Source of the DNA: Candidatus Tritonobacter lacicola
Lineage (GTDB): Bacteria; Auribacterota; Tritonobacteria; Tritonobacterales; Tritonobacteraceae
Reading direction: 5' to 3'
DNA: 45,261 bases
NCBI GenBank assembly: GCA_030765135.1
Contig: JAVCDC010000108.1
Location: 1 to 45,261, forward strand
The position numbers and the translations under genes were made by a program. The first letter of the stretch is position 1, and each line of letters starts with the position of its first letter. This document shows positions 9,071 through 28,676 of the stretch, in pieces. The notes under the pieces are model-generated. The model did no database searches, had not been told where the DNA came from, and worked only from the letters and a program-made list of their open reading frames with translations.

Positions 9071-9072
9071 AT

Positions 9073-9463: not shown

Positions 9464-9652
9464 TTGAAAACGATCAATGCCGAAAGGCTGAAGCTTGTGA
9501 GGACCCTGGGCGAGCGCGGAATCGGCTACGTCGATAAAATCGAGACGATGGGCATGATGGAAATAATGAAGATTCTCTGGCGCGGGTTCGCGTCCGCCTT
9601 GCCCGGGGTGGAAGGCAGGCTTCCGCCGAGAATCAGGGGTATCACGTTATAG
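9464..9652 (+). CDS. 62-aa hypothetical protein between the receiver gene and ftsL
   Basis: A small ORF starting with TTG behind GGGGGTAGGG. The N-terminal part (KTINAERLKLVRTLGERG) looks helical and charged, followed by a Met-rich segment (METMGMMEIMKI-like) and a Gly/Pro-rich end. No family is recognised and no membrane helix is clear. It lies in the same orientation as its neighbours with 43- and 62-base gaps. Coding status is supported only by position and the ribosome-binding site, so it could be spurious. Confidence 0.4.
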   Translation: MKTINAERLKLVRTLGERGIGYVDKIETMGMMEIMKILWRGFASALPGVEGRLPPRIRGITL

Positions 9653-9714
9653 GCTCGCGGTCCGCCGTTAAAACGGCGCTTCGGGGAATACAGGACGGGA
9701 TTGGAGAGGAGAGC

Positions 9715-10089: not shown

Positions 10090-10199
10090 CGACCTTCCTC
10101 CGGTTTAAACCATAACATCCTTCACAGCGGTTCGGCATGCCGTCCCCGGAGCATGAACGACGGCATGACGAGCCCTGTAACGGAAAAAAGGCGAGTGAT

Positions 10200-11933: not shown

Positions 11934-11934
11934 G

Positions 11935-11980
11935 TTAGATGAGTTATATAAGTTATATGAGTTCAATGAGTTGGTGAGTT
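11935..11980. repeat. single-arm GAGTTNNAT repeat upstream of murE
   Basis: Tandem nonamers GAGTTATAT, AAGTTATAT, GAGTTCAAT, GAGTTGGT and GAGTTTG fill the short gap between ftsI and murE. Unlike the copy at 6362 there is no inverted partner arm. Transcription through it would leave an AU-rich leader just before the murE ribosome-binding site. Confidence 0.6.
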
Positions 11981-12004
11981 TGAAAGTTGGAAGGGAAAGA
12001 TAAA

Positions 12005-13477
12005 GTGCGGATTAATCTGCGGGAGTGCCTTGGTGAGATGAGCGGCCTCGAGATACGGGGCAGGGAGGAGCTCGATATTACCGGCGTGGCTTACGATTCG
12101 AGAATGGTAAGGGATGGGAACATCTTCTTCGCCCTCCCCGGTGCCAGCGACGACGGGGCCGGTTACGTGGATGAGGCTGTTTCACGGGGAGCGGCTGCCG
12201 TCGTCGCACGCGATAATGTCAGTGTCCCGGGCGGCGTCAGCGTTGTCCGCGTCGATAAACCCCGCCGCGCGATGGCGAGGCTCGCCTCCGTCTTTTTCGG
12301 CGCCCCTTCTGGAGATCTCCGCGTTACTGGAATAACCGGCACCAACGGCAAGACGACAACGGCATACCTCCTCTGCGCTGTTCTGGAGGCGGGCGGGCGA
12401 AGGTGCGGCCTTATAGGCTCGGTGGAGTACCGCCTGGGCGAGAGGGCTATTCCGGCGCGGCTCACGACGCCCCAGTCGTCGGACATCCAGTCTATGCTCC
12501 GGGAGATGGTCGGTTCAGGATGCCGCTGCGCCGTCATGGAGGTATCCTCGCACGGCCTTCACCAGGGGCGCACGGACTGCGTCGATTTCGATGCGGCCAT
12601 ATTCACCAATCTCGCCTCAGACCACCTCGACTATCACGGGAGCATGGATAATTACCGCGAGGCGAAGCTCGGTCTCTTTCGCTCTCTTCCCGCGGTGCCC
12701 GGCGCGTTCGCCGTTATTAACGGCGATGACCCGGCGGCCCCTGCCTTCATGGAAAGTGCCGGGTGCGGAAAGCTTACCTACGGCGTGGGCGGCGGCAACG
12801 ACGTCAGGGCCGTCGGGATGGTCCCGGCGGAGAGAGGCTCCGAGTTCCTGGCGGAAACGCCGTGGGGCAGTTTCAAGGTAGCGATAAACCTCCCGGGGCT
12901 TCACAACGTCTATAACGCGCTCGCGGCCCTGGCGGCCGGCCTCTGCCTGGGAACTGAGGCGGAAGCCGCCGTCTCCGGCCTCGGGAGTGTCCGGAGCGTG
13001 CCCGGCAGGTTTGAGCCGGTGGAGTGCGGCCAGCCTTTCCACGTTATCGTCGATTACGCGCACACGGAGGACGGCCTGAGAAAAGTCATGGAGACGGCCC
13101 GTGCCGTTTTCGGCGGTCGCGTTCTCCTGGTGTTCGGGTGCGGGGGCGACCGGGACAGGTCCAAGCGACCGGGAATGGGAAGGGTCGCCTCCGACCTTGC
13201 CGACGTGGCCATCATTACCTCCGATAATCCCCGCGGGGAGGATCCCCTCGCCATCATAGAAGAAATTAGAAGCGGGTTTAAGGGGGGAGAATACGAGGTC
13301 GTTCCCGACAGGAGGGAGGCGGTTGCCAGGACGCTCGAGCTGGCGGGTGAGGGGGATGCGGTTCTCATAGCGGGGAAGGGGCACGAGTCCTACCAGGAGT
13401 TTGCCGACTTTGTGGTTCCCTTCAACGACCGGGAGGTGGCGCAGCGGATACTGGCAGAGATGGGATACAAACAATGA
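12005..13477 (+). CDS. murE: UDP-MurNAc-tripeptide synthetase MurE (meso-diaminopimelate type)
   Basis: Cytosolic ATP-dependent ligase adding the third residue to UDP-MurNAc-L-Ala-D-Glu. The 490-aa protein has the Mur ligase domain order: N-terminal UDP-binding domain with YDSRMVRDGNIFFAL, the ATP loop GITGTNGKTTTAYLL near residue 110, the central ASDHLDYHGS motif, and the C-terminal domain. The DNPR motif (TSDNPRGEDP) is the known signature for meso-DAP rather than lysine, so this cell probably makes DAP-type peptidoglycan. GTG 12005 is preferred because GGAAGGGA lies eight to nine bases upstream; an in-frame TTG at 11987 lies upstream within the repeat. Confidence 0.95.
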   Translation: MRINLRECLGEMSGLEIRGREELDITGVAYDSRMVRDGNIFFALPGASDDGAGYVDEAVSRGAAAVVARDNVSVPGGVSVVRVDKPRRAMARLASVFFGAPSGDLRVTGITGTNGKTTTAYLLCAVLEAGGRRCGLIGSVEYRLGERAIPARLTTPQSSDIQSMLREMVGSGCRCAVMEVSSHGLHQGRTDCVDFDAAIFTNLASDHLDYHGSMDNYREAKLGLFRSLPAVPGAFAVINGDDPAAPAFMESAGCGKLTYGVGGGNDVRAVGMVPAERGSEFLAETPWGSFKVAINLPGLHNVYNALAALAAGLCLGTEAEAAVSGLGSVRSVPGRFEPVECGQPFHVIVDYAHTEDGLRKVMETARAVFGGRVLLVFGCGGDRDRSKRPGMGRVASDLADVAIITSDNPRGEDPLAIIEEIRSGFKGGEYEVVPDRREAVARTLELAGEGDAVLIAGKGHESYQEFADFVVPFNDREVAQRILAEMGYKQ

Positions 13478-13627
13478 CCAATGACCAATGTTCAATGGAA
13501 AAAAAAGATATACACGAATAGAACAATGAAAAATGCAAATTGCAAAGTGCAAATTGGAATGAAAAAATTTCAGGAAATAATGACCAGGCACTTTGATTTT
13601 TATACTTTGCACTCTTCACTTTGCATT
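13473..13627. repeat. murE-murF gap: ATTGGTC-type and TGCAAA-type word repeats
   Basis: The gap opens with AATGACCAATGACCAATG, tandem words whose reverse complement matches ATTGGATATTGGATATTGG at 45089-45134. A second element follows: left arm AATGCAAATTGCAAAGTGCAAA (here 13529-13550 approximately), and right arm TTTGCACTCTTCACTTTGCA as the inverted form, with about 55 unrelated bases between. Neither encodes protein. Confidence 0.65.
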
Positions 13628-13642
13628 GAATCGAGTGTGCCA

Positions 13643-13665
13643 ATGCCCCTTACAAGGGCATTTTT
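13643..13665 (+). terminator. terminator-like hairpin ahead of murF
   Basis: ATGCCC, loop CTTACAA, GGGCAT, then TTTT. The stem is 6 bp with a T-run, which fits a weak intrinsic terminator. It lies inside the dcw run, 34 bases before the murF start, so it may attenuate transcription into the downstream cluster. Confidence 0.5.
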
Positions 13666-13698
13666 AAGAATGGTGTGCATGGTATTGTGGAAGCGGTA

Positions 13699-15093
13699 AT
13701 GATCAAAGATATTTTGGAGTACACGGGGGGTGAGCTGGCGGCCGGCTCTCAGGATGCGGAGATAGGCTCCATCTCGACCGATTCGCGGACGATAAAGGAG
13801 GGCCAGCTCTTCATAGCGCTCAGGGGGGAGAACTTCGACGGCCATGAGTTCATAGGCGACGCACTTGCCGCAGGGTGCGGCGGTTTTGTGGCGTCGAGGG
13901 ACTCGCGGATCCCCAGGCGGCTGTCGGCCGGTGCCGCCGGCATTATTGTCGAAGATACAACGAAGGCCCTGGGAGATATAGCGGCGGGGTACCGGTCGAG
14001 GTTTAATGTGAGGGTTGTCGGCGTGACGGGAAGCAACGGGAAGACGACCACGAAGGAGATGATCGCGCGCATATCGTCAGGGAGGTACGGAACGCTGAAG
14101 AGCAGGGGGACGTTCAACAACCAGGTCGGTCTACCCCTCACGCTGCTGGAGCTTGACGGGCGCCACGAAGTCGCTGTCCTGGAGATGGGTGCCTCCAGAA
14201 GGGGTGACATCGCCTACCTCGCCGGCATCGCTGTTCCGAGCATCGGCGTGATCACGAACGTAAGCCCGGCGCATTACGGCTACTTCAAGTCGATCGAGGC
14301 CGTCGCCGCTACCAAAGAGGAGCTCCTGGCCGCTCTCGCGGGCGAGAGGATGGCCGTCTTAAACGGTGACGATGAGCTCCTCGCCGGGGCGGGAAAGAGG
14401 CACACGGGGCCGAAGCTGTTCTTCGGTGCCGGCGGCCGCTGCGACGTCAGGGCTGAGGACGTTCGCGTCGGCCCGGACGGCAGGCCCTGCTTCAGAATCG
14501 CGACCCGGGGAGGGGAACCGTCGCAGCCCATCCTTCTGGGCGCCGTGGGTCGCCACAATATCTTTAACGCCCTGGCCGCCGCCTGCGTCGGCCTGTTCCT
14601 CCGCCTGGACCTTGAGGATATAGCGGCTTCTCTGGATGGTTTCGGCGGGCTTCCGATGAGAATGCAGCGGTCCGTGGTGGCGGGCGTCACGATTATAAAC
14701 GACGCTTATAACGCAAACCCCGCCTCCGTGGAGGCGGCGCTGAGGACGTTCGCGTCGATGGATATTCACGGGAAAAGGTTCGTCCTGATGGGCGACATGC
14801 TGGAGCTGGGAGAGATCACACAATTAGCCCACAGGAGGGCGGGAATGCTGGCCGGCGAACTCGGGATGGACGGACTCGTCGGGGTGGGCCGGCTGGTGCA
14901 GGATGCAGTGCGGGGCTGCCGTGAGGTTTCAACCGCCTGCGCGTGCACGGCCTCCTCGAAGGAGGAGGCCGTCGATATCCTTGCCGGAAAGCTGGAGGAG
15001 GGGGACGCCCTGTTAATCAAGGGCTCGCGAAAGAACAGGCTCGAGGAGTGCGCTGAGCTTTTGGGAGCCCGCCTCGGCGGAGGTCCGGGATGA
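13699..15093 (+). CDS. murF: UDP-MurNAc-tripeptide-D-alanyl-D-alanine ligase MurF
   Basis: Adds the D-Ala-D-Ala dipeptide to complete the UDP-MurNAc-pentapeptide. The 464-aa protein has the SIGSISTDSRTIKEGQLF-like N-domain (here STDSRTIKEGQLFIAL), the ATP-binding VTGSNGKTTTKEM loop, the NNQVGLPLTLLEL motif specific to MurF, and INDAYNANPAS in the C-domain. Length is normal. ATG 13699 follows GGAAGCGG; an upstream ATG at 13675 would add eight residues. The stop overlaps the start of a 45-aa ORF (ATGA). The D-Ala-D-Ala ligase gene that supplies its substrate is not in this window. Confidence 0.95.
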   Translation: MIKDILEYTGGELAAGSQDAEIGSISTDSRTIKEGQLFIALRGENFDGHEFIGDALAAGCGGFVASRDSRIPRRLSAGAAGIIVEDTTKALGDIAAGYRSRFNVRVVGVTGSNGKTTTKEMIARISSGRYGTLKSRGTFNNQVGLPLTLLELDGRHEVAVLEMGASRRGDIAYLAGIAVPSIGVITNVSPAHYGYFKSIEAVAATKEELLAALAGERMAVLNGDDELLAGAGKRHTGPKLFFGAGGRCDVRAEDVRVGPDGRPCFRIATRGGEPSQPILLGAVGRHNIFNALAAACVGLFLRLDLEDIAASLDGFGGLPMRMQRSVVAGVTIINDAYNANPASVEAALRTFASMDIHGKRFVLMGDMLELGEITQLAHRRAGMLAGELGMDGLVGVGRLVQDAVRGCREVSTACACTASSKEEAVDILAGKLEEGDALLIKGSRKNRLEECAELLGARLGGGPG

Positions 15094-15227
15094 TCTTAAA
15101 ATTTCTCTGCAGGAAAAGGAACCCGTCCAGGGGCAAGCGGGCCCATTTCATAAGTGAGAACCCTCTCTTTTATAAAGTCATGAAGAAGGACAGGACGATT
15201 ATAAGGATAAAGAAACGGAAGAGATGA
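15090..15227 (+). CDS. 45-aa highly basic small ORF between murF and mraY
   Basis: An ATG overlaps the murF stop (ATGA) and has GGCGGAGG upstream; the TGA ends one base before the mraY ATG. The 45-aa product begins MILKFLCRKRNPSRGKRAHF, is about one-third Lys/Arg, and ends RTIIRIKKRKR. No family is recognised. Its start and stop make it fit exactly between two essential genes in one operon, which argues for real translation and coupling. It might be a small nucleic-acid- or membrane-surface-binding protein, or a coupling leader peptide. Confidence 0.65.
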   Translation: MILKFLCRKRNPSRGKRAHFISENPLFYKVMKKDRTIIRIKKRKR

Positions 15228-15228
15228 G

Positions 15229-16317
15229 ATGCTGTACTACATTTTCTATCCGCTGAGGGAATATTTTTTCGCCTTCAACGTATTCCGCTACATCACCTTC
15301 AGGGCGGTGTTCGCAGCCGTCACCGCTCTTCTTATCTCCCTGGTCATGGGCCCGCCCCTGATACGGGTGCTCGCCAGGCTGGGCGTCGGGCAGGAGGTGC
15401 GGGACGACGGACCGAGGTCACACCTCAGCAAGGCCGGGACGCCGACCATGGGGGGGGTGCTTATCCTGGCTTCGGTCATCATAGCCACGTTACTCTGGGC
15501 GGATATATTCAACCGCTTTGTGGTAATCGCGCTCGCTTCCACGGTTGTCCTTGGCGCCCTGGGCTTCTGCGACGACTTGAAGAAAGTGAGAAGGCGCAGG
15601 TCCCTCGGCCTGAGTGGGAAGTCGAAGCTCGTTGTTCAGACCCTGCTCGCCGCGGGCATAGCGGGCTACCTCATGTGGTGCCCTGCGACCCGGAGCTTTA
15701 TCACCGAGCTGACCGTGCCTTTCCTCAAGGTCCCGGTCGTCGCGAACCTGGGTCTCCTGTACGTTGTCCTTGCCTTCCTTGTCATAGTCGGCAGCTCTAA
15801 CGCGGTTAACCTCACCGATGGCCTCGACGGCCTGGCAATCGGGTGCGTCATCATAGCGGCCCTTTCCTACTCCGTCATGAGCTACGTCGTCGGGAACGTG
15901 AAGTTCGCGGCTTACCTCCAGCTGAGGTACGTTGCGGGCTCGGGCGAGCTGGCGATATTCTGCGCCGCCATAGTCGGGGCCGGCCTCGGTTTTCTCTGGT
16001 ACAATGCGCCGCCCGCGGAGGTTTTCATGGGGGACACGGGGTCCCTCGCCCTCGGCGGGGCCGTCGGCGTGGTCGCGCTCCTGATAAAGAAGGAGCTCGT
16101 CCTCCTGCTGGTCGGGGGCATTTTCGTCCTGGAGGCCCTCTCGGTTCTCATACAGGTTGCCTCGTTCAAACTCACCGGCAGGAGGGTCTTTCTGTGCGCG
16201 CCTCTGCACCACCACTTCGAGCTGCGCGGTTGGTCGGAGACGAAGGTGACGATCCGGTTCTGGATTGTGGCGATCATATTCGCCCTTTTCAGTCTGGCCA
16301 CATTAAAACTTCAATAA
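15229..16317 (+). CDS. mraY: phospho-N-acetylmuramoyl-pentapeptide transferase MraY
   Basis: An integral membrane enzyme that transfers phospho-MurNAc-pentapeptide to undecaprenyl phosphate, giving lipid I. The 362-aa protein has about ten helices and the conserved catalytic stretches: GFCDDLKK (Asp-Asp pair), NLTDGLDGLA, FMGDTGSLALGG and the cytosolic APLHHHFELRGW histidine loop. The early KAGTPTMGGVLI signature is also present. It starts one base after the 45-aa ORF stop. A long inverted repeat lies between its stop and murD. Confidence 0.97.
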   Translation: MLYYIFYPLREYFFAFNVFRYITFRAVFAAVTALLISLVMGPPLIRVLARLGVGQEVRDDGPRSHLSKAGTPTMGGVLILASVIIATLLWADIFNRFVVIALASTVVLGALGFCDDLKKVRRRRSLGLSGKSKLVVQTLLAAGIAGYLMWCPATRSFITELTVPFLKVPVVANLGLLYVVLAFLVIVGSSNAVNLTDGLDGLAIGCVIIAALSYSVMSYVVGNVKFAAYLQLRYVAGSGELAIFCAAIVGAGLGFLWYNAPPAEVFMGDTGSLALGGAVGVVALLIKKELVLLLVGGIFVLEALSVLIQVASFKLTGRRVFLCAPLHHHFELRGWSETKVTIRFWIVAIIFALFSLATLKLQ

Positions 16318-16325
16318 AGATAAAG

Positions 16326-16473
16326 ACCGCGGATTATACGGATTAGGCAGATTATTTTGAGGAAGCTTTTGAGTCTGGATTGGAAGTAAGGAATTTCTAT
16401 GCAAAGCGGTGGTTTTACTTTTAAGGAAAAATTAATTCAGTCATTAATCAGCATAATCCGCCAAATCCGCGGT
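16326..16473. repeat. inverted-arm element of GGATTA decamers between mraY and murD
   Basis: The 29-base left arm (16326-16354) and right arm (16445-16473) are inverted repeats matching at about 22 of 29 positions. Both start ACCGCGGATT when read inward. Each arm contains three GGATTA-like words at 10-bp spacing. The interior of about 90 bases is AT-rich and non-coding. The architecture parallels the elements at 5506, 6362, 13529 and 39726, with a different word. Confidence 0.75.
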
Positions 16474-16508
16474 TGCCTTAACTATTTTTTGCTCCCCGTG
16501 GTCGGTGG

Positions 16509-17861
16509 ATGAAACGAAGTGTTAAAGGGAAAAAAGTTATTGTGGCCGGGATGGGAAAGAGCGGCGCTGCCGCCGCGCTCCTGTTGAAGGAGATGGGGGC
16601 CGAGGTGAAAGCGAGCGATATACGGGATGATGACGCTGTGCGGGAAAGCACGCGCATCCTCCGCGCCGCCGGCGTCGAGTGCGAGGTAGGGGAGCAGGGA
16701 GGCGCACTTCTCGAGGGGGCGGACCTGCTTGTGGTTAGTCCCGGCGTGGGCGGGGACGCGGCCGTTGTCTCGGCCGCCCGCGAGAGGGGGGTGGAGGTCG
16801 CGGGGGAGATAGAGCTCGCTTACTGGTTCTGGCCCGGAGGGGTCATCGCGATCACGGGGACCAACGGTAAGACGACCACAGCGCATATGATCAAGGCGAT
16901 ACTGGATTCGGCCGGCATGAGGTCGGTCCTCTCCGGCAACATCGGATACCCGTTCTCCAGCGCCGTTCTTGAACACGGCGATGCCGGCCTAGCGATATTG
17001 GAGCTGAGCTCCTTCCAGCTCGAGCATATAAGCCTTTTTCATCCGGGCACGGCCCTGCTCCTGAACCTGGCGCCGGACCACCTGGACCGTTACGGGGACG
17101 TACGTGAATACTACGCCTTCAAGCTGGCCATTTTCTCTAACCTGGAGAGGGGAGACCGGGCGATCTTCAGGTTGGATGAGCGGGAGCTCGTAGAGCCCAT
17201 GCTTTCGAGAAATGGAGCAGCGGGACTGACCTTCGGCCTGGAAGGAGGCGGGCTCTCCATCTCCGGTGATGATGTGACCCTGGACGGTGAGAGGATATTC
17301 AGCCTGGGAGGTTTCGGCCTTCGCGGCAGGCACAATATCGAGAACGCGCTTGCGGCCGCGGCGGTCGCGGACGTATGCGGTGTGGAAAGAGACATTATAG
17401 AGACGTCGTTGCGCTCTTTCGAGGGCCTGCCCCACCGGCTCGAGCATGTGGGGACTTACGGCGGGATAGACTTCTACAACGACTCGAAGTCGACGAACCT
17501 CGACGCCATGCTCAAGGCACTGTCCTCGTTCTCCGGAAGGCTTATACTCATCGCGGGAGGCAAGGACAAGGGCGAGGACTACGGGGCCGTCAGGGAGGCT
17601 GTCGGGGCCCGCGCGAGAGCTGTTTTCCTGATAGGGGAGTCCCGGGACGCGATGAAGGAAGCTCTCTCCGGCTGTTGCGAGGCGGTTGCCTGCGGGAGCC
17701 TGGACGAGGCCGCGGCGGGCGCGTCGGCTCTGGCGGTAAAAGGCGATACCGTTCTGCTCAGCCCGGGCTGTTCGAGCCTGGATATGTACGGCGGCTTCGA
17801 GGAGCGCGGTGATCATTTCAAAAGAATCATAGGGAATCTGAGGGGTGTAGACGATGAATAA
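16509..17861 (+). CDS. murD: UDP-MurNAc-L-alanine:D-glutamate ligase MurD
   Basis: Adds D-glutamate to UDP-MurNAc-L-Ala in the cytosol. The 450-aa product has the Rossmann-like N-domain (VIVAGMGKSGAAAA), the ATP loop ITGTNGKTTTAHM near residue 117, the NLAPDHLDRYG metal/ATP motif, the HRLEHVG motif, FYNDSKSTN and LLSPGCSSLDMYGGFEERG at the C-terminus. Length is typical. The last eight bases overlap the LysM gene downstream, so the pair should be cotranscribed and translated together. Confidence 0.96.
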   Translation: MKRSVKGKKVIVAGMGKSGAAAALLLKEMGAEVKASDIRDDDAVRESTRILRAAGVECEVGEQGGALLEGADLLVVSPGVGGDAAVVSAARERGVEVAGEIELAYWFWPGGVIAITGTNGKTTTAHMIKAILDSAGMRSVLSGNIGYPFSSAVLEHGDAGLAILELSSFQLEHISLFHPGTALLLNLAPDHLDRYGDVREYYAFKLAIFSNLERGDRAIFRLDERELVEPMLSRNGAAGLTFGLEGGGLSISGDDVTLDGERIFSLGGFGLRGRHNIENALAAAAVADVCGVERDIIETSLRSFEGLPHRLEHVGTYGGIDFYNDSKSTNLDAMLKALSSFSGRLILIAGGKDKGEDYGAVREAVGARARAVFLIGESRDAMKEALSGCCEAVACGSLDEAAAGASALAVKGDTVLLSPGCSSLDMYGGFEERGDHFKRIIGNLRGVDDE

Positions 17862-18285
17862 GAAAGTTCTTTTCATACAGGTTGCGGCGATCCATTTGAT
17901 GGTTCTCGGGCTCTTGTTCAGCCTGATGAACTGCTGCGAGAGGGAAAAGACGGGCGATTATGGCCCGCCTCCCGTGGCGGTACCTCCATCGTCGGAGGAG
18001 CCCCGGGAGGTCGTGAAGAGGGCGGAGCCGAAAGAGATTATCGAAGAGGAAGAGCCCCTTGTCATCAAGGAGTACGGGAGACCGGGCGTCGTCAGGGGGT
18101 CCGAGATAAAGGAGGTCTTGAAAGAGGAGCGGGAGGAGAGGGTTCACAAGGTGAAGAAGGGGGAGACGCTTTCGGGGATAGCTCAGGATTGCGGCGTAAC
18201 GATGAAGGCCATCATGAAACTGAACAATATAAAGGATCCGGCGAAGATAATGGTTGGCCAGAAGATCAAGATACCCGGCGAGTAA
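17854..18285 (+). CDS. LysM-domain cell-envelope protein inserted between murD and ftsW
   Basis: A 143-aa protein: an N-terminal hydrophobic segment (about 5-26) ending in a Cys-Cys pair, a long Pro/Glu/Lys-rich linker (about 30-93), and one C-terminal LysM domain (HKVKKGETLSGIAQDCGVT to GQKIKIPG, about 96-142). LysM binds peptidoglycan glycan chains. The NCC after the hydrophobic segment is not a good lipobox, so it is more likely anchored by an uncleaved signal. The start overlaps murD by eight bases. A peptidoglycan-binding protein inside dcw suggests a role in septal wall synthesis or positioning; that is inference. Confidence 0.88.
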   Translation: MNKKVLFIQVAAIHLMVLGLLFSLMNCCEREKTGDYGPPPVAVPPSSEEPREVVKRAEPKEIIEEEEPLVIKEYGRPGVVRGSEIKEVLKEEREERVHKVKKGETLSGIAQDCGVTMKAIMKLNNIKDPAKIMVGQKIKIPGE

Positions 18286-18327
18286 CAACGGGGGGTACTT
18301 GATTTATTAAACCTATGGGACACAAAC

Positions 18328-19458
18328 GTGGATAGGTCGAAGATTGCGCTTATTATCGTCGTCAGTTTACTCCTGGGCATAGGGGTCGTGATGATCTACA
18401 GCACGAGCGCGATCTATGCCGGCGAGAATTACAATGACAGTTATTTCTACCTGAAAAAACAGGTGGCGTGGGCTCTTATCGGCGTTCTTCTCATGGCGGT
18501 GTTCGCTATGGTCGACTACCATTTCCTGCGCACGCTGAGTATCCCCCTGCTCTTTCTCAGCACGTTTCTGCTAATGCTCGTTTTCGTGCCGGGATTCGGC
18601 CGCGAGGCGGGCGGCGCAAAGAGGTGGCTGAGCATTGCCTCTTTCAGTTTTCAGCCCTCGGAGTTCACGAAGTTCGCCCTCATCGTCTACTTGGCTGACT
18701 TCCTCGCCAGGAATCAGGCCAGGATAAGGGAGCTATGGAAGGGGTTCTTCCTTCCCATTTCCATAGTGCTTCTGAACATGGTGCTGGTTGTAATACAGCC
18801 GGACCTGGGGACGACCGTTCTTCTGGGGCTCGTCATCTTTGTCCTTCTGTTCGTCGCGGGCATGAGGATTTCGTATCTCGTTACCGTTGCCCTCGCGTCC
18901 CTGCCGGTGCTTTACGCGGTTATTTTTAAGTCGGCTTACAGGAGGTCGAGGATCCTGATCTTCCTCGACCCGTGGAAGGACCCCCAGGGGACGGGCTTCC
19001 AGATAATACAGTCGTGGATCGCCCTCAGCTCGGGGGGGGTCTTCGGCCTGGGGCTTGCCCAGAGCAGGCAGAAGTTCTTCTATCTGCCGGAGGCGCACAC
19101 GGATTTCATATTCTCGATTATCGGGGAGGAGCTCGGGCTGATCGGCACCCTGGCAATCCTCGCGCTCTTCCTTGTACTTGTCATCGCCGGAATGAGGATA
19201 GCCTGGAAGGCCCCCGATCTTTACGGCAACCTGCTGGCGTCCGGCATCGTTGCCCTTATATCCTTCCAGGCGATCATCAACATCGGCGTCGTTACAGGCA
19301 CTTTCCCCACGAAGGGCCTCCCGCTGCCGTTCATAAGCTTCGGCGGCTCGAACCTTCTGGTCAACATAGTGGGGATAGGTGTGCTTCTCAACATAGCCAG
19401 GCACTCGACGTCCCGGAGGCTGAAAAAGAGAGAGGTGAGTGTGCTCGGTCCATTTTAA
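18328..19458 (+). CDS. ftsW: peptidoglycan glycosyltransferase FtsW (SEDS family)
   Basis: A multi-spanning SEDS polymerase that extends septal glycan strands from lipid II with FtsI. The 376-aa protein has about ten helices and the SEDS signatures FQPSEFTKFALIVYLADFL, IQPDLGTT, AHTDFIFSIIGEELGLIG and the C-terminal PTKGLPLPFISFGGSNLL. The start is GTG at 18328; the ribosome-binding site is weak. Only 42 bases separate it from the LysM gene. Placement before murG is standard. Confidence 0.95.
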   Translation: MDRSKIALIIVVSLLLGIGVVMIYSTSAIYAGENYNDSYFYLKKQVAWALIGVLLMAVFAMVDYHFLRTLSIPLLFLSTFLLMLVFVPGFGREAGGAKRWLSIASFSFQPSEFTKFALIVYLADFLARNQARIRELWKGFFLPISIVLLNMVLVVIQPDLGTTVLLGLVIFVLLFVAGMRISYLVTVALASLPVLYAVIFKSAYRRSRILIFLDPWKDPQGTGFQIIQSWIALSSGGVFGLGLAQSRQKFFYLPEAHTDFIFSIIGEELGLIGTLAILALFLVLVIAGMRIAWKAPDLYGNLLASGIVALISFQAIINIGVVTGTFPTKGLPLPFISFGGSNLLVNIVGIGVLLNIARHSTSRRLKKREVSVLGPF

Positions 19459-19510
19459 CAGGTCAGGTAATTATACTCGTGATCGATTGAGGTTTGGCCG
19501 GGCGGAAAGG

Positions 19511-19566
19511 GATTACGATTAAGAGTACGAGTACGAGTATGAGTTGAGCAATAGAACAGAGGGGAA
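19511..19566 (+). repeat. GAGTAC word element ending in AGAACAGAGGGG (leader of murG)
   Basis: GATTACGATTAAGAGTACGAG, GTACGAGTATGAG and then CAATAGAACAGAGGGG lead directly into the murG ATG. It matches the acyP leader at 6511-6547 in words, order, orientation and the use of its end as Shine-Dalgarno. The rest of the ftsW-murG gap is unremarkable. Confidence 0.65.
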
Positions 19567-20682
19567 ATGACTAAAGTGGCGATAGCTTGCGGAGGAACGG
19601 GAGGGCACATATACCCGGCCCTCGCTCTGAGCGAATGGATGGGGGAGTATTTTCCCGGCGTCGAGACGGGCTTCGTCGTCACGAGATCGGAACGCACCAG
19701 GAGAATGATGAGTAATTATACTGGAAAGGTCAGATGTATCGGCGCAAGGCCGATGCCCGCGAGGATCTCGCCGGCGATGCTGCTCTTCGCGTGCTCGTTT
19801 CTCGGCGGCCTCGTCACGGGGATGGCTTACCTGGCGAGAGAGCGGCCCGACGTCGTCCTTGGAATGGGCGGTTACGTGTCCGCCCCCCTCGTGCTGGCGG
19901 CGCGCCTCCTCGGTTTTCCTACGGTTATACACGAGCAGAACATCGTCCCGGGACGGGCGAACGCTTTCCTTGCCCGCTGGGTGGACCGCGTGGCCCTGAG
20001 CTTCCCCTCGATCCCCGGCCGGCTGGACAGGAAGAAGGCGGTGGTTACGGGCAATCCGGTGAGGAGGAAGGTCGGCGAGCTGTCCGCGGAAGAGGCGAGG
20101 ACCCGGCTGGGCCTTCGAGAAGACCGCTTCACTGTTCTGGTCATGGGCGGAAGCCGGGGGGCGCGTTTCCTGAACGAGTGCGGGCCGGCCACCGCCTCGA
20201 TGCTCCCGCCTGAAAGATTTCAGTGGGTCCACATAGCCGGCGAGGAGGATTACGGCCGGGTCGGCAGGAGGTACGGGGAGATCGGCGTCCCGCACTACTG
20301 CACGCCCTTCACCGGCGAGATCGAGGTCCCCTATGCCGCGTCGGATATGGCAGTGTGCCGGGCAGGGGCGACGACGATCGCGGAGCTGGCAACGTGCGGC
20401 CTCCCGGCCCTCTTTATCCCTTACCCGCACGCGGTCGGCTCGCACCAGAGCCTGAACGCGGGATACCTGGCGGAGAGGGGGGCGGCTCTCGTGCTGGAGC
20501 AGGACGCAGCGAGCCCGGACAGAATCGCTTCGATTATTTCAGGTCTTGAAGCCGGCGGGGATAAGCTCGACGGGATGGGTCGAAGGCTGAAGGGCATTTT
20601 CGAAGGCGATGCGTCGAGAAAGCTGGCCGAAGTAGTGCTGAGTCTCGCAAAGAAAGGAATCCGGCAAAATTACAATCATTAG
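19567..20682 (+). CDS. murG: UDP-GlcNAc:lipid I N-acetylglucosaminyltransferase MurG
   Basis: A peripheral membrane GT-B (GT28) enzyme that makes lipid II on the inner leaflet. The 371-aa product has the N-terminal GGTGGHIYPALAL glycine-rich loop, VLGMGGYVSAPLVLAA, the HEQNIVPGRANAFLA motif, GNPVRR, the second-domain MGGSRGARFLNE, and CRAGATTIAELA with IPYPHAVGSHQSLNA for UDP-GlcNAc binding. All are canonical. GAGGGG lies three to four bases before the ATG and comes from the repeat element upstream. Confidence 0.97.
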   Translation: MTKVAIACGGTGGHIYPALALSEWMGEYFPGVETGFVVTRSERTRRMMSNYTGKVRCIGARPMPARISPAMLLFACSFLGGLVTGMAYLARERPDVVLGMGGYVSAPLVLAARLLGFPTVIHEQNIVPGRANAFLARWVDRVALSFPSIPGRLDRKKAVVTGNPVRRKVGELSAEEARTRLGLREDRFTVLVMGGSRGARFLNECGPATASMLPPERFQWVHIAGEEDYGRVGRRYGEIGVPHYCTPFTGEIEVPYAASDMAVCRAGATTIAELATCGLPALFIPYPHAVGSHQSLNAGYLAERGAALVLEQDAASPDRIASIISGLEAGGDKLDGMGRRLKGIFEGDASRKLAEVVLSLAKKGIRQNYNH

Positions 20683-20722
20683 TAACCGTTAGTAACCTAT
20701 TTAGTAACCAACAGTAACCTGT
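20680..20722. repeat. AGTAACC word repeat after murG
   Basis: Four AGTAACC words at roughly 10-12-base spacing span the murG stop and the start of the gap to murC. The reverse-complement form (GGTTACT, AGTTACT) is repeated at 25378-25437 between ftsA and ftsZ, and isolated copies occur at 5578-5606. The remaining bases to 20791 hold no ORF. Confidence 0.6.
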
Positions 20723-20791
20723 ATTTGCAGACTTCGTAGAGTGCAGTTAAATCGAAAATATTAAAGCTGCTGTAAGGGTGATAAACGAAGG

Positions 20792-22153
20792 ATGAAGAAG
20801 GCCCATCTAATAGGCATAGGCGGTATCGGCATGAGCGGCCTTGCGCGGATGCTCGTCTCCCTCGGCTGGCGGGTCGAGGGGTCCGATTGCTCGGCGGGGC
20901 GGGAGGTGGACGACCTGCGGGAGAGAGGCGTGCGGGTCGCGATCGGACACGCCGCAAAGAACGTCGATGATCCCGACCTGATCATCTACTCCTCGGCGAT
21001 AGCTTCCGACAACCCGGAGCTGGGCGCGGGTGAGAGGAAGGGGGTCCGCTGCATCAGGAGGGGTGAGGCAGTCGCGATGCTGACCCGGTCGAAAAACGTG
21101 ATTGCGGTTACGGGGACCCACGGCAAGACGACCTCCTCCGCCATGCTCCTCTCAGTCCTCGAAGCAGCCGGCCGAATGCCGTCTTACCTTATCGGGGGAC
21201 ATATCCTCCCGGGCGGCTCCAACTTTGGTGAGGGGAATGGAAAGGATTTTGTCCTGGAGGCGGACGAGAGCGACGGCACCTTCCTGGATTATGAGCCGGT
21301 CCATGCCCTCATAACCAACATAGATTGCGAACACCTGGGGCACTACGGTTCGATGGGGGGGCTCATAGGTGCTTTCGGGCAGTTCGCGTCGTCGATCAGG
21401 GGTGATGGGGTGCTCGCCGCGTTCGCGGACGATCCTGCCATCGCGTCCATCCTGCCGCGCTGCGGGGCGAGGACCGTGACCTTCAACTTCGTGAACGGGG
21501 ACTACAGGTCCTCCGCCGTCAGGGAGAGGGAAGGGTGGCGCCTTACACTCTACAGCGGAGGCGACCCCGTCGGCTCCTGCCTTCTCCGGGTCTTCGGCAA
21601 GCACAACATACTGAACGCCACGGGAGTCGCGGCGCTCTCGCTGGAGATGGGGTGCCGGTGGGAGGATGTGGCCGCCGGCTTTGACGATTACAGGGGAGTG
21701 GCCAGGCGATTCGAGGTCAAGACGGACGGACCGGTGACGGTGGTGGATGACTACGCTCACCACCCCGCGGAGGTCAGGGCCACGCTCGCGGCGGCGCGGG
21801 CGCTCGCCCGGGGGCGGCTTATCGCCCTCTGGCAGCCGCACAGGCCGAGCAGGTGCCGTGACCTCTTCGATGCCTGGCGCGGGGCGTTCGGCCATGCCGA
21901 TGCGGTGTTCGTGACGGACATCTATATGGCGGGGGAGAGCGCCCTGCCGGGGATAACCGGGGAGGGAATGGCGGGGGCCATACTCTCCCCGGGCGCGAGG
22001 TTCGCCGGCAGTATCCACGAGGCGGCGGCGGCAGTGGCGGATGAAGTGCGGGAGGGTGACTTTGTAGTCGTGCTCGGCGCGGGCGATGTCACGAAGGCGG
22101 CGGATGCTCTTGCCTTATCCCTCCCGGACAACCGGAAAAAGGAGAGTGCTTGA
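20792..22153 (+). CDS. murC: UDP-N-acetylmuramate:L-alanine ligase MurC
   Basis: The first amino-acid-adding Mur ligase. The 453-aa protein has the N-terminal GIGGIGMSGLARML Rossmann loop, the VTGTHGKTTSSAML ATP loop, ADESDGTFLDYEP, the INIDCEH-like metal site (here NIDCEHLGHYG), the RRFEVK and DDYAHHPAEVRATL motifs and the WQPHRPSRCRDLF stretch in the C-domain. Length is normal. CGAAGG precedes the ATG closely. A 58-aa ORF begins three bases after the stop. Confidence 0.96.
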   Translation: MKKAHLIGIGGIGMSGLARMLVSLGWRVEGSDCSAGREVDDLRERGVRVAIGHAAKNVDDPDLIIYSSAIASDNPELGAGERKGVRCIRRGEAVAMLTRSKNVIAVTGTHGKTTSSAMLLSVLEAAGRMPSYLIGGHILPGGSNFGEGNGKDFVLEADESDGTFLDYEPVHALITNIDCEHLGHYGSMGGLIGAFGQFASSIRGDGVLAAFADDPAIASILPRCGARTVTFNFVNGDYRSSAVREREGWRLTLYSGGDPVGSCLLRVFGKHNILNATGVAALSLEMGCRWEDVAAGFDDYRGVARRFEVKTDGPVTVVDDYAHHPAEVRATLAAARALARGRLIALWQPHRPSRCRDLFDAWRGAFGHADAVFVTDIYMAGESALPGITGEGMAGAILSPGARFAGSIHEAAAAVADEVREGDFVVVLGAGDVTKAADALALSLPDNRKKESA

Positions 22154-22156
22154 AAG

Positions 22157-22333
22157 ATGAAAATTATAGAAAAAACCGGGACAATCGATGCTCCGGTTGA
22201 GGGGCGGGCAAGGAAAACGGCTGCCGTGGGAAAGGGGACCGGAAGGAAAACCGCTCCTCCGGACAGGGCCGTGATGGCGATGCGGAGCCTTCACAGCCTC
22301 CAGTGTCTTCAGCTTTTCAAGTTGAAGATGTAA
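22157..22333 (+). CDS. 58-aa small ORF between murC and murB
   Basis: An ATG three bases after the murC stop opens a 58-codon frame ending TAA at 22331-22333. GGAGAG lies about 10 bases upstream, inside the murC end. The product starts MKIIEKTGTIDAPVEGRARK, is basic and Gly/Ala-rich, and ends with a short hydrophobic LHSLQCLQLFKLKM. No family is recognised. It is 47 bases from murB. Evidence is position and a moderate ribosome-binding site only. Confidence 0.45.
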   Translation: MKIIEKTGTIDAPVEGRARKTAAVGKGTGRKTAPPDRAVMAMRSLHSLQCLQLFKLKM

Positions 22334-22380
22334 GGGGCTGTATTATTGCACGGGGCAAGCGGCTTGATTGAACGGGTCGG

Positions 22381-23295
22381 ATGGTGGAAGAGGATATTCT
22401 CAACGAGATCAAAGGCAGGGCGGGGGGAGAAGTCATGGTGAACGAGATGATGTTGCGCCACACGACGCTCCGCGTCGGCGGGCCCGCCGAGGTCTTCGTC
22501 GAACCCGTCGATCTGCCGGCTTTCAGGAAGCTGGTATCCTGGGCGCGGACGATGGGGATCGTCACCCGGGTTATCGGGTCCGGCTCCAATATCCTCGTCC
22601 CGGACGAGGGGATAAAGGGGATAACCATCCGCCTTTCATCGCCCAGTTTCAGGATGATCGGGGTCCGCGGGGATGAAATGCTCTGCGGCGCGGGGGCTAG
22701 GATATCCGATCTCGTGAAGTACTGCATAGAGAAGGGGATGGGAGGGCTTGAGTTCCTCGCCGCCATACCGGGGACTGTGGGAGGAGCCGTCGCGATGAAT
22801 GCGGGGGCCTGGGGGAGGGATATAGCCGGCGTGATAAGAGGCGTGACCGTCGTACACGCCGACGGTTCCGTCTCGAGAATCGGAAGGGACGGGCTCGCGT
22901 TCGGGTACAGGAAGTGTTCCATTCCCCGCGGAGAGTTCATCGTTTCGGCGACATTCGGCGTCAGCTGCCGCCGCTCCGGCGAGATTCGAGAGGAGGTTGC
23001 CGGGCACGCCGCGGAGCGCAGGAGAAGATTTCCGGAGGGTCCCAGCGCGGGCTCAATTTTCAAGAACCCCCCCGGCGATTACGCCGGGCGGATGATTGAG
23101 GCCGCAGGCCTCAAGGGGGAAACCTGCGGAAGGGCGCAGATTTCGACGGTGCATGCCAACTTCATCGTCAATCTCGGCGGGGCCCGGGCCGTGGACGTGC
23201 TCAGGCTGATCGAGATGGCCGGGGAGGCCGTACAGCGTATGTTCTCGGTCGAGCTCGAGCCGGAGATCGATATATTAAGCGAGGTGACTGCATGA
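22381..23295 (+). CDS. murB: UDP-N-acetylenolpyruvoylglucosamine reductase MurB
   Basis: An FAD-dependent reductase that turns UDP-GlcNAc-enolpyruvate into UDP-MurNAc. The 304-aa, short-type enzyme shows HTTLRVGGPAEVFVEP, the FAD loop VIGSGSNILV, the IPGTVGGAVAMNAGAWG segment, YRKCSIPRG, the catalytic-serine region GSIFKNPPGDYAGRMIE and the C-terminal EPEI with the active-site glutamate. The stop overlaps the ftsQ start (ATGA). In many bacteria ddl sits at this junction, but here it is absent. A second in-frame ATG at 22435 is possible but would cut into the normal N-terminus. Confidence 0.95.
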   Translation: MVEEDILNEIKGRAGGEVMVNEMMLRHTTLRVGGPAEVFVEPVDLPAFRKLVSWARTMGIVTRVIGSGSNILVPDEGIKGITIRLSSPSFRMIGVRGDEMLCGAGARISDLVKYCIEKGMGGLEFLAAIPGTVGGAVAMNAGAWGRDIAGVIRGVTVVHADGSVSRIGRDGLAFGYRKCSIPRGEFIVSATFGVSCRRSGEIREEVAGHAAERRRRFPEGPSAGSIFKNPPGDYAGRMIEAAGLKGETCGRAQISTVHANFIVNLGGARAVDVLRLIEMAGEAVQRMFSVELEPEIDILSEVTA

Positions 23296-24137
23296 AAAAG
23301 AGAAGGAACAGGCGCAGGAAGAAGAGGAAAATAGTCATGAACGTCCGGGTCTCATCGAAGGGCCGGGGCGGGGACCGGCAGGCGAAGAGGAGGACTCTTC
23401 TAGCTGCCTGTGCCGTGGCTGCGGTGACCGTTGTGGCGGGGGGCGGCTACCTGGTCCCGCGGGTAAGCGATTTTCTCTTTTCCGCCGCACGGTTCAAGGT
23501 CGGGAAGGTCGAGGTGCAGAACCACTATTCCTTTTCCGCTGCGGATATCATGAGACTTGCCGATATCGAGCTGGGGCAGGACCTTCTTCACCTCAACCTC
23601 GATTACCACAGGATGCTTCTTGAAAGACACCCCGATATAGAGGGGGCCGTTATCGAGCGCCTTATACCCAACAGGATACGCATAAGCGTGCACGAAAGGG
23701 CCCCGGTCGCCAGGATACTCCAGGGCAACGGCTATCTCATCGATGGCAGCGGTGTCGTGCTGTCGGCCAGAAAAAGGACGCAGGCGGCGGCGCTGCCCGT
23801 CATCCAGGGTATGGACGTCGGCAGGCTGTACGTCGGCCGGGTCCTCAACCGGGAAGACATCAGGGCCGCACTGGGTATCCTGAAGCACTATATGCGGAGC
23901 GAGCTGCCCAGGTACCTGCTCGTCACGGCCGTCGACCTCTCGGACAGGCAGAACATAGTGATCGTATCGAGAGAGATAGACGAGATCAGGCTGGGGCTGG
24001 GCGAGATGGAGTACAAGCTGTCGAAGCTTCTGAAGGTATTGAAGAGGAGGCACGAGCTGACGAGGGAGGCCGGTTCGTCCTACCTCGACCTGAGGTGGAC
24101 GGATGTCGCTGAGTTGCCCAGGGAGGGGAAGGTATGA
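23292..24137 (+). CDS. ftsQ: cell-division protein FtsQ/DivIB
   Basis: Bitopic division protein that bridges FtsK/FtsA-side and FtsL/FtsB-side partners. The 281-aa protein has a strongly basic cytoplasmic tail (about 1-35), one membrane helix (about 36-55), a POTRA domain beginning FKVGKVEVQNHYSFSAADI, and the FtsQ beta domain to the end (LIDGSGVVL, RYLLVTAVDLSD, LGLGEMEYKLSKLLKVL). It overlaps murB by four bases and ftsA by four bases, so the three form a tightly coupled unit. Confidence 0.93.
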   Translation: MKKRRNRRRKKRKIVMNVRVSSKGRGGDRQAKRRTLLAACAVAAVTVVAGGGYLVPRVSDFLFSAARFKVGKVEVQNHYSFSAADIMRLADIELGQDLLHLNLDYHRMLLERHPDIEGAVIERLIPNRIRISVHERAPVARILQGNGYLIDGSGVVLSARKRTQAAALPVIQGMDVGRLYVGRVLNREDIRAALGILKHYMRSELPRYLLVTAVDLSDRQNIVIVSREIDEIRLGLGEMEYKLSKLLKVLKRRHELTREAGSSYLDLRWTDVAELPREGKV

Positions 24138-25372
24138 GAAGAAAAGACGACCTTGTTATCGGGCTCGATGTCGGGACGACGAAGGTGTGCGCCATCGTGG
24201 CGGAGAAAGGAGATAACGGTGACGTCCGTATAATCGGCATGGGCATGAGCCCGTCGAACGGCCTCAGGAAGGGGGTCGTGGTTAACATGGAGAGCACGAT
24301 CGGCTCCATAGGCAGGGCCATCGAAAAAGCCGAGGAGATGTCGGACGTCGAGATTAATTCCGTGTTCGCGGGCATAGCGGGGGGGCACATCGACAGCTTC
24401 AACAGCAGGGCGTGTATCCCCATCACGAGATCGAGCGGCGAAATCCTGGAGAGCGATATCCAGAAGGCCCTCTCGGCCGCAAGGGCCACCTACATCCCCA
24501 TAGACCGGGAGGTCGTCCACGCGATTCCCCAGGGGTTTCTTGTCGACGGCCACGAGGTGGGCAAGGACCCGCGGGGGATGTCCGGCATGAGGCTGGAGGC
24601 GAAGGTCCATATCATAACGGGGGCCATAACCTCCGCGCAGAACATCATCCTGTGTATCAACCGGGCGGGGTTCGCGGTGGAGGACATCGTTCTCGAGCCC
24701 CTGGCTTCCGCGCTTGCCGTCCTGACGGAAGAGGAGAAGGAATCGGGCGTGCTCCTCATAGATATAGGCGGCGGCACGACCGACTACGTCGTGTTTACCG
24801 GCGGGGCCATCCGGCACTCCAACGTCCTCTCTCTCGGGGGCGACCACCTTACCAACGATATCGCCATCGTCCTGAAGATCCCGATGTCCAAGGCCGAAGA
24901 GATAAAGAAGGAATACGCCAGTGCCGGCAGGGAGAACGTTGGGGAGTCCGATGAGATAGCGGTGAGGTGCGGTGTCGGCCAGCCGAACAGGATTATTTCC
25001 AGGAAGGAGCTTTGCGATATCGCGCACTCGCGCATGGACGAGATATTCAGCCTGATCATGAGGGAGATTCATAAGAGCGGATACGAAAGGCGCATAAGCT
25101 CCGGCGTCGTTCTCACCGGCGGGGCTTCGCTCCTGCCGGGGTCTGTCCGGATGGCGGCGGATATATTCGACATGCCGGTCAGGATGGGTTCCCCGATGGG
25201 TGTGAGCGGGCTGGTGGAGGTGCTGGACAACCCCATATTCGCCACGGGTGTCGGGTTGTCCAAGTTCGGTTCCCACTGGCGCTCTTCGGCTATGGAGAGC
25301 CGTTTCAAGGGGCGGCACCTTTTCTCAAGGGTCCTGGAAAGGATGAGCGACTGGTTCGGTGAAAAGCTGTAG
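24134..25372 (+). CDS. ftsA: cell-division protein FtsA
   Basis: An actin-like ATPase that tethers FtsZ to the membrane. The 412-aa product has the first phosphate loop IGLDVGTTKVCAIV, the SHS2/1C region (GIAGGHIDSFNS), the second phosphate loop LLIDIGGGTTDYVVF and the adenosine motif VLTGGASLLPG. The C-terminal amphipathic helix, VLERMSDWFGEKL, is the usual membrane-targeting sequence. All key motifs look intact, in contrast to the partner FtsZ encoded 99 bases downstream. Confidence 0.96.
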   Translation: MRRKDDLVIGLDVGTTKVCAIVAEKGDNGDVRIIGMGMSPSNGLRKGVVVNMESTIGSIGRAIEKAEEMSDVEINSVFAGIAGGHIDSFNSRACIPITRSSGEILESDIQKALSAARATYIPIDREVVHAIPQGFLVDGHEVGKDPRGMSGMRLEAKVHIITGAITSAQNIILCINRAGFAVEDIVLEPLASALAVLTEEEKESGVLLIDIGGGTTDYVVFTGGAIRHSNVLSLGGDHLTNDIAIVLKIPMSKAEEIKKEYASAGRENVGESDEIAVRCGVGQPNRIISRKELCDIAHSRMDEIFSLIMREIHKSGYERRISSGVVLTGGASLLPGSVRMAADIFDMPVRMGSPMGVSGLVEVLDNPIFATGVGLSKFGSHWRSSAMESRFKGRHLFSRVLERMSDWFGEKL

Positions 25373-25471: not shown

Positions 25472-26608
25472 ATGATTCGTATGGTATCTGAGGATTCCGG
25501 TCGGCCCGGGATCGCCGCTGTCGGCGTCGGTGGGGCGGGGGCGGCCATTTTGAGCGGGCTGGCGGAAACGGGAATGAAAGGATTCGGGACCATCTCGGTG
25601 GCCGCGGACGCCGCCTCCCTTGAGAGATCGGGTGCCGTGGAGAGGATACTCATCGGGGGGGATATCACGGGAGGAAATGGGTGCGGCGGGGATCCGGAAC
25701 TCGGCAGGCGGGCCGTCCTGGAGGACATCGATCTCGTGAGGGAAGCGCTCGAGGAATACGACAGGGTCGTGCTCATTGCCGGGCTGGGCGGGGGTACGGG
25801 CACCGGCGCCCTTCCCGAGATCGCGTCTCTCGCAGGGGAGATGGGGATACGGTTGCTCTCGGTCGTGACTATGCCGCTCTCCTACGAGGGGAGGAGACGG
25901 CGCGAGATGGCCGGCAAGGGCCTCGCCTCACTGAGGTCCGCCGTGGAAGGCGTGGTTCCCATATCTAACGATTACCTGCTTTCACACGTGGACGAGGAGA
26001 CGTCCATGGCCGATGCCTTTTTCCGGCGCGTCAACAGCAGCGTTTGCCGGGTTGTCCAGGCGCTGGTCATGCTGATGGAGGGGGGAGGGCTTATCAACGC
26101 CGAGCTTTCGGATATACGCTCTGTGCTGTCCGCTGACGGCGTCGCCGCGGTGGGCTTCGGCGGGGGAGCGGGAGAAGGGCGCGCACTTGCCGCGGCGTCC
26201 GGGGCGCTCTCCAGCGCCATGCTCGAGAAAGCCCCATTCAATGAGGCCGGCGGGGCGCTCGTGAGCTTCGTGGGCAGCCCCGGCATGCCGTTTCACGACG
26301 TTGACCGGGCGTTGAAGCGCATCGCCGAATCGGCCGGCGCCGGGGCCGATATCGTTCTCGGGGCGTTCGTAGACGAGGCGATGGAGGACCGCTGCACCGT
26401 CACGATTATCGCCACCGGGCTGGGTGAGCGCCCTGCGCCGGGGAAGGGCGCTGAAGCGAAAGAGAAGGCCGTAACGTGGGAGGCCGAGAAGGTTGAGCAG
26501 ACGGTGATAGATTTTTCGGCTCCGGACAGGGGCCGTTTCGCCGACCTCGAGCCGTCTTTCTACGATGGGGAGGACCTGGATATACCGACCATATTGCGAA
26601 GGAAATAG
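25472..26608 (+). CDS. ftsZ: divergent FtsZ (tubulin-like division GTPase)
   Basis: A 378-aa tubulin-fold protein placed directly after ftsA. It keeps the T4 signature GGGTGTG (106-112), the T6 SNDYLL motif and a canonical C-terminal FtsA/ZipA-binding peptide LDIPTILRRK (369-378). Several nucleotide and catalytic loops are altered. The T1 Asn of GGxGxN is Ala (GGAGAA). The NTDAQ motif reads AADAA. GAGANPE is GCGGDPE. The T7 synergy loop NxDxxD is NAELSD, with Glu211 in place of the first catalytic Asp. These changes predict altered GTP binding and slower GTP hydrolysis. It could be the main FtsZ of this lineage or a specialised paralogue; position favours the former. AAGGAG precedes the ATG. 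Confidence 0.88.
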   Translation: MIRMVSEDSGRPGIAAVGVGGAGAAILSGLAETGMKGFGTISVAADAASLERSGAVERILIGGDITGGNGCGGDPELGRRAVLEDIDLVREALEEYDRVVLIAGLGGGTGTGALPEIASLAGEMGIRLLSVVTMPLSYEGRRRREMAGKGLASLRSAVEGVVPISNDYLLSHVDEETSMADAFFRRVNSSVCRVVQALVMLMEGGGLINAELSDIRSVLSADGVAAVGFGGGAGEGRALAAASGALSSAMLEKAPFNEAGGALVSFVGSPGMPFHDVDRALKRIAESAGAGADIVLGAFVDEAMEDRCTVTIIATGLGERPAPGKGAEAKEKAVTWEAEKVEQTVIDFSAPDRGRFADLEPSFYDGEDLDIPTILRRK

Positions 26609-28136: not shown

Positions 28137-28163
28137 TGTCAAGAGTAAAGATTTGACCCCTTA
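28137..28163. repeat. REP-like GGGGTCAAATCTTTAC motif at the 3' end of the RAYT gene
   Basis: On the minus strand, GGGGTCAAATCTTTACTC-TTGAC directly follows the RAYT stop codon. GGGGTC-led words next to Y1 transposases are typical REP-like ends. A related GGGGTCTGACC lies on the other side of the gene at 28785-28795. Confidence 0.5.
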
Positions 28164-28676
28164 TCTTTGACTATGAAGCTCCAGTAGCTCTGCGGCCCGA
28201 TGCCGATCAATCACCTGGTATCGTTTTGACGGATTCTGAATGGCCGTATAACCACAGCATTCCCATTCCGAAGGATGACGGACAACTCCGGCTCTGACCA
28301 TATTAAAGTCGATATATACCATGCATTGTGCCAGGTGTTTCCCGGCTTGAACGGCCGTCGCATGGTATCTATCTTCCCAGAAAGCCCCCTTACGCTGCTT
28401 GCGTTGATTATACTCCTGAGCGATTCTTCCTGCTACCAGCTGCATTGAGCGGGGGATCGTCCAACCGTCTTCTCCATCCACGACCAGGAGATGAATGTGG
28501 TTGAATGTCACCATATGGTTGAGAATGCTCAGCCCATATCGTTTCTTCGCTTCAAAAAGCCAGCGTATCCATCGACGGCGATCCCTGGCGAATTTGAACA
28601 GGAAATCCTTCTTGTGGCATCGGTGGGTAATATGCCAAACACAACCGGGTATATGATATCTGTTCGCCCTGGGCAT
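28161..28676 (-). CDS. REP-associated tyrosine transposase (RAYT, Y1_Tnp), C-terminally short
   Basis: A 171-aa HUH single-strand nuclease of the IS200/IS605-related RAYT group. RAYTs are single-copy housekeeping-like transposases thought to mobilise REP palindromes. Visible are the N-terminal RANRYHIPGCVWHITHRCHKKD block, the HUH motif NHIHLLV (His60, His62) and the catalytic Tyr121 in VYIDFNMVRAGVV, with RKGAFWEDRYHAT between. Members of this subgroup usually continue for another hundred residues after the KRYQVIDRHR region; here the frame ends at LELHSQR. It may be a 3'-truncated copy with an intact catalytic core. GGGGTC-type REP-like words flank it. Confidence 0.8.
   Translation of the reverse strand: MPRANRYHIPGCVWHITHRCHKKDFLFKFARDRRRWIRWLFEAKKRYGLSILNHMVTFNHIHLLVVDGEDGWTIPRSMQLVAGRIAQEYNQRKQRKGAFWEDRYHATAVQAGKHLAQCMVYIDFNMVRAGVVRHPSEWECCGYTAIQNPSKRYQVIDRHRAAELLELHSQR

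Follow-up and report, generated by a model that had tools for sequence, protein, structure and literature searches.

A single-copy, dcw-encoded FtsZ of the Auribacterota with changes in its nucleotide and catalytic loops

FtsZ treadmilling driven by GTP hydrolysis is widely held to be central to bacterial division, and how bacteria lose FtsZ is an open question for the PVC superphylum. The ftsZ gene of Candidatus Tritonobacter lacicola raises the question of what the only FtsZ of a cell may do when residues of its nucleotide and catalytic loops are replaced. The Auribacterota, to which this organism belongs, are assigned to the PVC superphylum (PMC12057145). The window, the whole stretch of 45,261 nucleotides that was analyzed, is the entire contig C31 of a 3.2-Mb assembly that is 94% complete and consists of 148 contigs. 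Its FtsZ is a known type of protein changed at nucleotide and catalytic sites, unlike the canonical FtsZs of its class relatives. No mention of FtsZ together with Auribacterota was found in the literature searched.

Gene, cluster and predicted fold

A first-pass annotation had called the product a dcw-encoded FtsZ. This identification stands, because both FtsZ Pfam domains score above cut-off (PF00091, 106 bits; PF12327, 68 bits) and the ORF adjoins ftsA and ftsQ (Table 1). The dcw cluster looks complete, with mraW first and ftsZ last, after ftsQ and ftsA. GC content at third codon positions is 0.77 in ftsZ versus 0.76–0.81 in its dcw neighbors. The TIGR00065 score of 245–246 bits is below the 295.2-bit equivalog cut-off, which is a curated naming threshold; ftsA-adjacent FtsZs in relatives score under it too. 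The C-terminal segment of the ftsA product, HLFSRVLERMSDWFGEKL, looks like a membrane-targeting helix. An Rfam search of the window returned no matches.

Table 1. Features of the ftsZ locus, in positions of the window
Feature	Position	Strand	Description
Remaining dcw genes	8126..23295	+	mraW, ftsI-like PBP, mraY, LysM protein, ftsW, murG, murC, murB
Three Mur ligases	within 8126..23295	+	murE/murF/murD type, in the dcw cluster
ftsW	18328..19458	+	57–61% identity to class relatives
ftsQ	23292..24137	+	
ftsA	24134..25372	+	ordinary; 53–57% identity to nearest relatives
ftsZ	25472..26608	+	378 aa, intact ORF, ATG start, AAGGAG immediately 5′
T1 loop GGAGAAI	25529..25549	+	residues 20–26; Ala at canonical N25
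T2 loop AADAA	25601..25615	+	residues 44–48; canonical NTDAQ; D46 retained, N44/T45/Q48 gone
T3 loop GNGCGGDP	25673..25696	+	residues 68–75; glycines retained, Cys replaces usual Ala, rest ordinary
T4 GGGTGTG	25787..25807	+	residues 106–112; canonical
T7 loop NAELSD	26096..26113	+	residues 209–214; Glu211 for first Asp; N209, D214 retained
C-terminal tail QTVIDFSAPDRGRFADLEPSFYDGEDLDIPTILRRK	26498..26605	+	residues 343–378; Auribacterota-style extended, ends in putative FtsA-binding peptide
Terminator-like segment	26620..26730	+	directly 3′ of ftsZ; GC-rich inverted repeats then T runs (by eye)
IS200-like Y1 transposase	28161..28676	-	about 1.5 kb downstream of ftsZ

The predicted fold is that of FtsZ (pLDDT 87), and the nearest solved structures are B. 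subtilis and M. tuberculosis FtsZ (Foldseek; TM 0.85–0.90 by target length). The protein does not belong with CetZ, TubZ, PhuZ or BtubAB: its best PDB matches in sequence and fold are all FtsZ, and RepX is matched only at E 1.6e-5. The fold and the dcw position after ftsA are shared with canonical FtsZ (TIGR00065/PF00091+PF12327; B. subtilis, S. aureus, M. tuberculosis), as are the T3/T4/T5/T6 core, N209, D214 and the C-terminal FtsA-type peptide.

Altered and retained residues

Residues are numbered in the S. aureus style, the window protein running one residue ahead around T7 (E211 is S. aureus D210). It is about 31–38% identical to canonical relatives, and it differs from canonical FtsZ in its score under the TIGR00065 cut-off and in having A25, A44, A45, A48 and E211 for N25, N44, T45, Q48 and D210. 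D46, the T3 glycines, GGGTGTG, E139, R143, N166, N209, D214 and the LDIPT tail are unchanged. The T4 signature GGGTGT[GS] is present; Asn25 of T1 and NTD of T2 are replaced (A25, AAD), and the T7 motif NxDxxD is absent (NAELSD). The first-pass annotation had reported altered nucleotide and catalytic loops alongside a preserved T4 and LDIPTILRRK peptide, and the ORF contains every motif concerned (GVGGAGAA, VAADAAS, NGCGGDPE and NAELSD for the former; GLGGGTGTG and LDIPTILRRK for the latter).

In a reference set of 27 canonical FtsZs, 46 alignment columns carry one residue in at least 93% of the sequences. The window protein departs at eight of these columns (V16A, N25A, N44A, T45A, F100V, F136L, D211E, L250M). 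The nucleotide and catalytic loops account for four of them (N25, N44, T45, D211). All other rows of the alignment depart at 0–4 columns, except one row from family f4 with 13. It agrees with the consensus at 38 of the 46, yet at only 38% of the other columns. The altered sites had been described as normally very conserved. This is true of the four loop residues, which are near-invariant, but not of the T3 motif GCGGDPE, which is near-ordinary: GAGGDPE or GAGADPE can be seen in canonical proteins, Cys alone is unusual, and T3 was therefore rejected as a strong anomaly. Glu211 is likewise atypical against the near-invariant D211 of the reference set, but it also occurs in a genome of the same phylum (G010, NLEFAD) whose FtsZ is otherwise canonical, which indicates that E211 by itself is tolerated.

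The sample from outside the phylum comprised 13 genomes with low scores. Two of these have a changed N25 and three a changed N44, and wherever the T7 loop was read, neither a change of D211 nor Glu at 211 was found. Also outside the phylum, the FtsZs L190 (G204:C40), L191 (G075:C1) and L187 (G208:C91) score low and carry altered residues at the nucleotide site; L190 is without D46, T109, R143 and N209. The combination of changes in the window protein was found in no other FtsZ examined. A change in base specificity, caused by loss of the Asp that contacts the base (D187 in S. aureus), was considered and rejected, because the alignment, which has one extra residue there, is ambiguous at that point; class relatives have Asn at or beside this position. 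E. coli FtsZ also has Asn there.

The conserved C-terminal peptide of the FtsA type is recognizable by its sequence as EDLDIPTILRR. The whole tail, QTVIDF...RGRF...EPSFYDGEDLDIPTILRR, fits a pattern common to much of the phylum and absent from outgroups, and vertical descent of the gene is favored for this reason. Extended tails of Auribacterota FtsZs read roughly QTxIDF....RGxF....PT...GEDLDIPTFLR and exceed the usual FtsA-binding peptide in length; they may bind another partner as well. FtsK and FtsA were found in the genome, and because SepF was not, FtsA is the likely tether of FtsZ.

Copy number, descent and rate

A partner FtsZ encoded elsewhere had been suggested for this protein. Profile searches of the assembly with TIGR00065 and PF00091 (E up to 10) do not support it: one FtsZ/tubulin gene was found and no second, so that in this 94% complete genome the protein is a single copy and not a secondary paralogue beside a canonical FtsZ. 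That a canonical second FtsZ does the GTPase work from the unassembled part of the genome is very unlikely; about 6% of the genome is missing, but the present copy adjoins ftsA in the dcw cluster, and other FtsZ-bearing genomes of the phylum have one full-length copy, except G030. (G030 carries an f4-type FtsZ plus a fully canonical FtsZ at 448 bits [L002 G030:C55, L033 G030:C93], and the latter may be on a contaminant contig.) It is still harder to credit that the changes arose by sequencing, binning or assembly error. The assembly is fragmented into many contigs, but each Asn-to-Ala replacement takes two base changes per codon, the changes lie at separate sites and all are in frame, FtsA and FtsW from the same contig are 53–61% identical to those of class relatives, and the FtsZ tail is Auribacterota-like.

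FtsZ is 31% identical to that of the class relative G001, versus 53% for FtsA and 57% for FtsW. In trees without the longest-branched families, the terminal branch of the window lineage is 2.65 substitutions per site for FtsZ versus 0.55 for FtsA and 0.56 for FtsW; the acceleration is specific to FtsZ. In the full tree the FtsZ branch is 1.36 substitutions per site and joins the long-branched family f3, a grouping that was set aside as a likely long-branch artefact. f3 is a different case, since its FtsZ, FtsA and FtsW are all long-branched alike. The FtsZ tree leaves the placement of the window protein unsettled, and grouping with class f2 is not rejected (AU test, p 0.52). A foreign origin is disfavored by the Auribacterota-style tail.

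The six class relatives have canonical FtsZs, which places the changes in the window lineage alone. A contig-wide genome scan, which may omit the window's own genome, found no close homologues, and the sequence is carried by one genome only. The pattern proposed in advance as support for a modified GTPase cycle, identical changes across the lineage, was thus not seen; other branches of the phylum show erosion of the FtsZ core at different residues. Neutral decay nevertheless does not appear to account for the protein, because drift along a branch of 2.65 substitutions per site would have wiped out the conserved columns that it retains.

FtsZ in the phylum and the proposed GTPase cycle

Among genomes at least 90% complete, FtsZ is below the TIGR00065 cut-off in 7 of 19 FtsZ-bearing genomes of the phylum (including the window genome) versus 10 of 212 other sampled bacteria (Fisher p ~1e-4), a comparison that is descriptive only because the genomes are related. 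The strongest case is the five species of families f9/f12 (L043, L105, L115, L118 and L120, in G031, G013, G028, G021 and G033): T1 is GVGDWGIR-like, T4 ranges from GGGVGSG to GGAVSST, T6 is FSLDRL, and NxDxxD of T7 is lost. The tail GEDLDIPTF is retained with at most one residue change, and FtsA is normal. The f9/f12 stem is 2.53 substitutions per site in FtsZ versus 0.49 in FtsA, the predicted fold is FtsZ (pLDDT 84.6), and dN/dS in one species pair is 0.39 for FtsZ and 0.25 for FtsA. These FtsZs are probably without normal GTP hydrolysis but still under selection. They resemble the window protein in FtsZ-specific acceleration, normal FtsA and an intact tail, and differ in being far more eroded (T1, T4, T6, T7).

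The two genera of family f5 (94–95% complete) gave no FtsZ match, and the FtsA search gave weak actin-family matches only. In G016 (L157, G016:C61:24000-43000), the dcw cluster meets an opposite-strand two-component system after ftsQ; murC and murB are fused there in a single 741-aa ORF. G009 is likewise an f5 genome without detectable FtsZ or ordinary FtsA. Altered FtsZs are also seen in f4 (L112, L113, L116, L117), with GN or GD for GG in T1, variants of T2, an intact T6, and a T7 of IKLDFAD or IKIDFAD in which the Asn is lost; L112 departs at 13 of 52 near-invariant columns.

In filaments of S. aureus FtsZ, N44 and D46 hold Mg2+ waters, K+ is held across the interface by N208 together with Q48, N25 makes a bond to the nucleotide, and a swing of D210 positions water (PMC8936486). 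S. aureus Q48A assembles with a GTPase activity about 6-fold lower and stabilized polymers, and no assembly is left in D46A, N208L, D210N and D213N (PMC8936486). Against a functional window protein speaks that FtsZ mutants of E. coli, Q47K and D212G among them, do not complement without a suppressor (PMC5405962). The window protein shares with S. aureus Q48A the Ala48 at the T7/H2 contact, which is engineered in S. aureus but natural here and joined with changes at N25, N44, T45 and D210. A natural weak-GTPase FtsZ is that of Ca. Thiosymbion oneisti (PMC8953583), whose state is the one proposed here; it belongs to another lineage, and its low GTPase was measured whereas that of the window protein is predicted. 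The divergent and essential FtsZ of Verrucomicrobium spinosum (PMC12283558), also of the PVC superphylum, is unusual in a C-terminal extension, whereas the window protein is unusual in its nucleotide and catalytic loops.

The residues that tune hydrolysis (N44, Q48, N25) are lost in the window protein and the assembly-critical set is kept or changed from Asp to Glu, which suggests a working filament with slower turnover. Binding of guanine nucleotide and head-to-tail assembly would most likely be retained, and FtsA would tether the filament to the membrane through the intact C-terminal peptide. The Mg-water shell would be weaker without N44, as would the K+ lock that joins subunits without Q48; a hydrogen bond to the nucleotide would go with N25, and Glu would stand in for the swinging catalytic Asp. 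The expected outcome is slower GTP hydrolysis, longer-lived filaments and slower turnover. Judged from the published mutants, a modified GTPase cycle fits best among the interpretations left, and both assembly and slow GTPase would be expected; N44A, T45A, N25A and D210E combined could abolish assembly. On balance, we consider it reasonably probable that this is the sole FtsZ of the cell, a product of vertical descent that works in division, in which assembly and the FtsA tether are retained and GTP hydrolysis is slowed by the remodelled site.

Two other readings, both unlikely, bear on the extent of that change. The protein might polymerize with little or no GTP hydrolysis as a static scaffold turned over by FtsA or other factors, as the joint alteration of several hydrolysis-related positions might suggest, together with f9/f12, where residues of T4, T6 and T7 are lost and yet the FtsA-binding tail is nearly unchanged and FtsA is normal; retention of both T7 carboxylates (Glu211, D214), R143 and the T3 and T4 loops speaks against this. 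Alternatively, FtsZ might be in the course of being lost as division moves to FtsZ-independent machinery, the present copy being what is left of it, a scaffold or regulator on which constraint is relaxed. Division without FtsZ is known from both the Planctomycetota and the Chlamydiota (PMC12283558, PMC5147048), two f5 genomes are without an FtsZ match or ordinary FtsA, and the cluster of G016 ends after ftsQ. Such a loss accords poorly with the retention of 38 of the 46 near-invariant columns, the tail, D46, R143, N209 and D214, and with an FtsA that is intact and slow-evolving.

The pattern across the phylum is more interesting than the window gene alone. Tentatively, the Auribacterota may form a natural series in which FtsZ has repeatedly been freed from GTPase constraint while its link to FtsA was held. 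A possible order, put forward with the same reserve, runs from canonical FtsZ through the remodelled window protein and the seemingly catalytically dead FtsZs of f9/f12 to joint loss of ftsA and ftsZ in f5. In that case some bacteria would have a Z-ring that functions independently of GTP turnover by FtsZ, and loss of FtsZ would proceed via a GTPase-free scaffold stage. A lone remodelled FtsZ, seemingly non-catalytic relatives that keep the FtsA peptide, and relatives without both genes would then be natural intermediates, which would allow direct tests of the need for treadmilling and of how FtsZ is lost.
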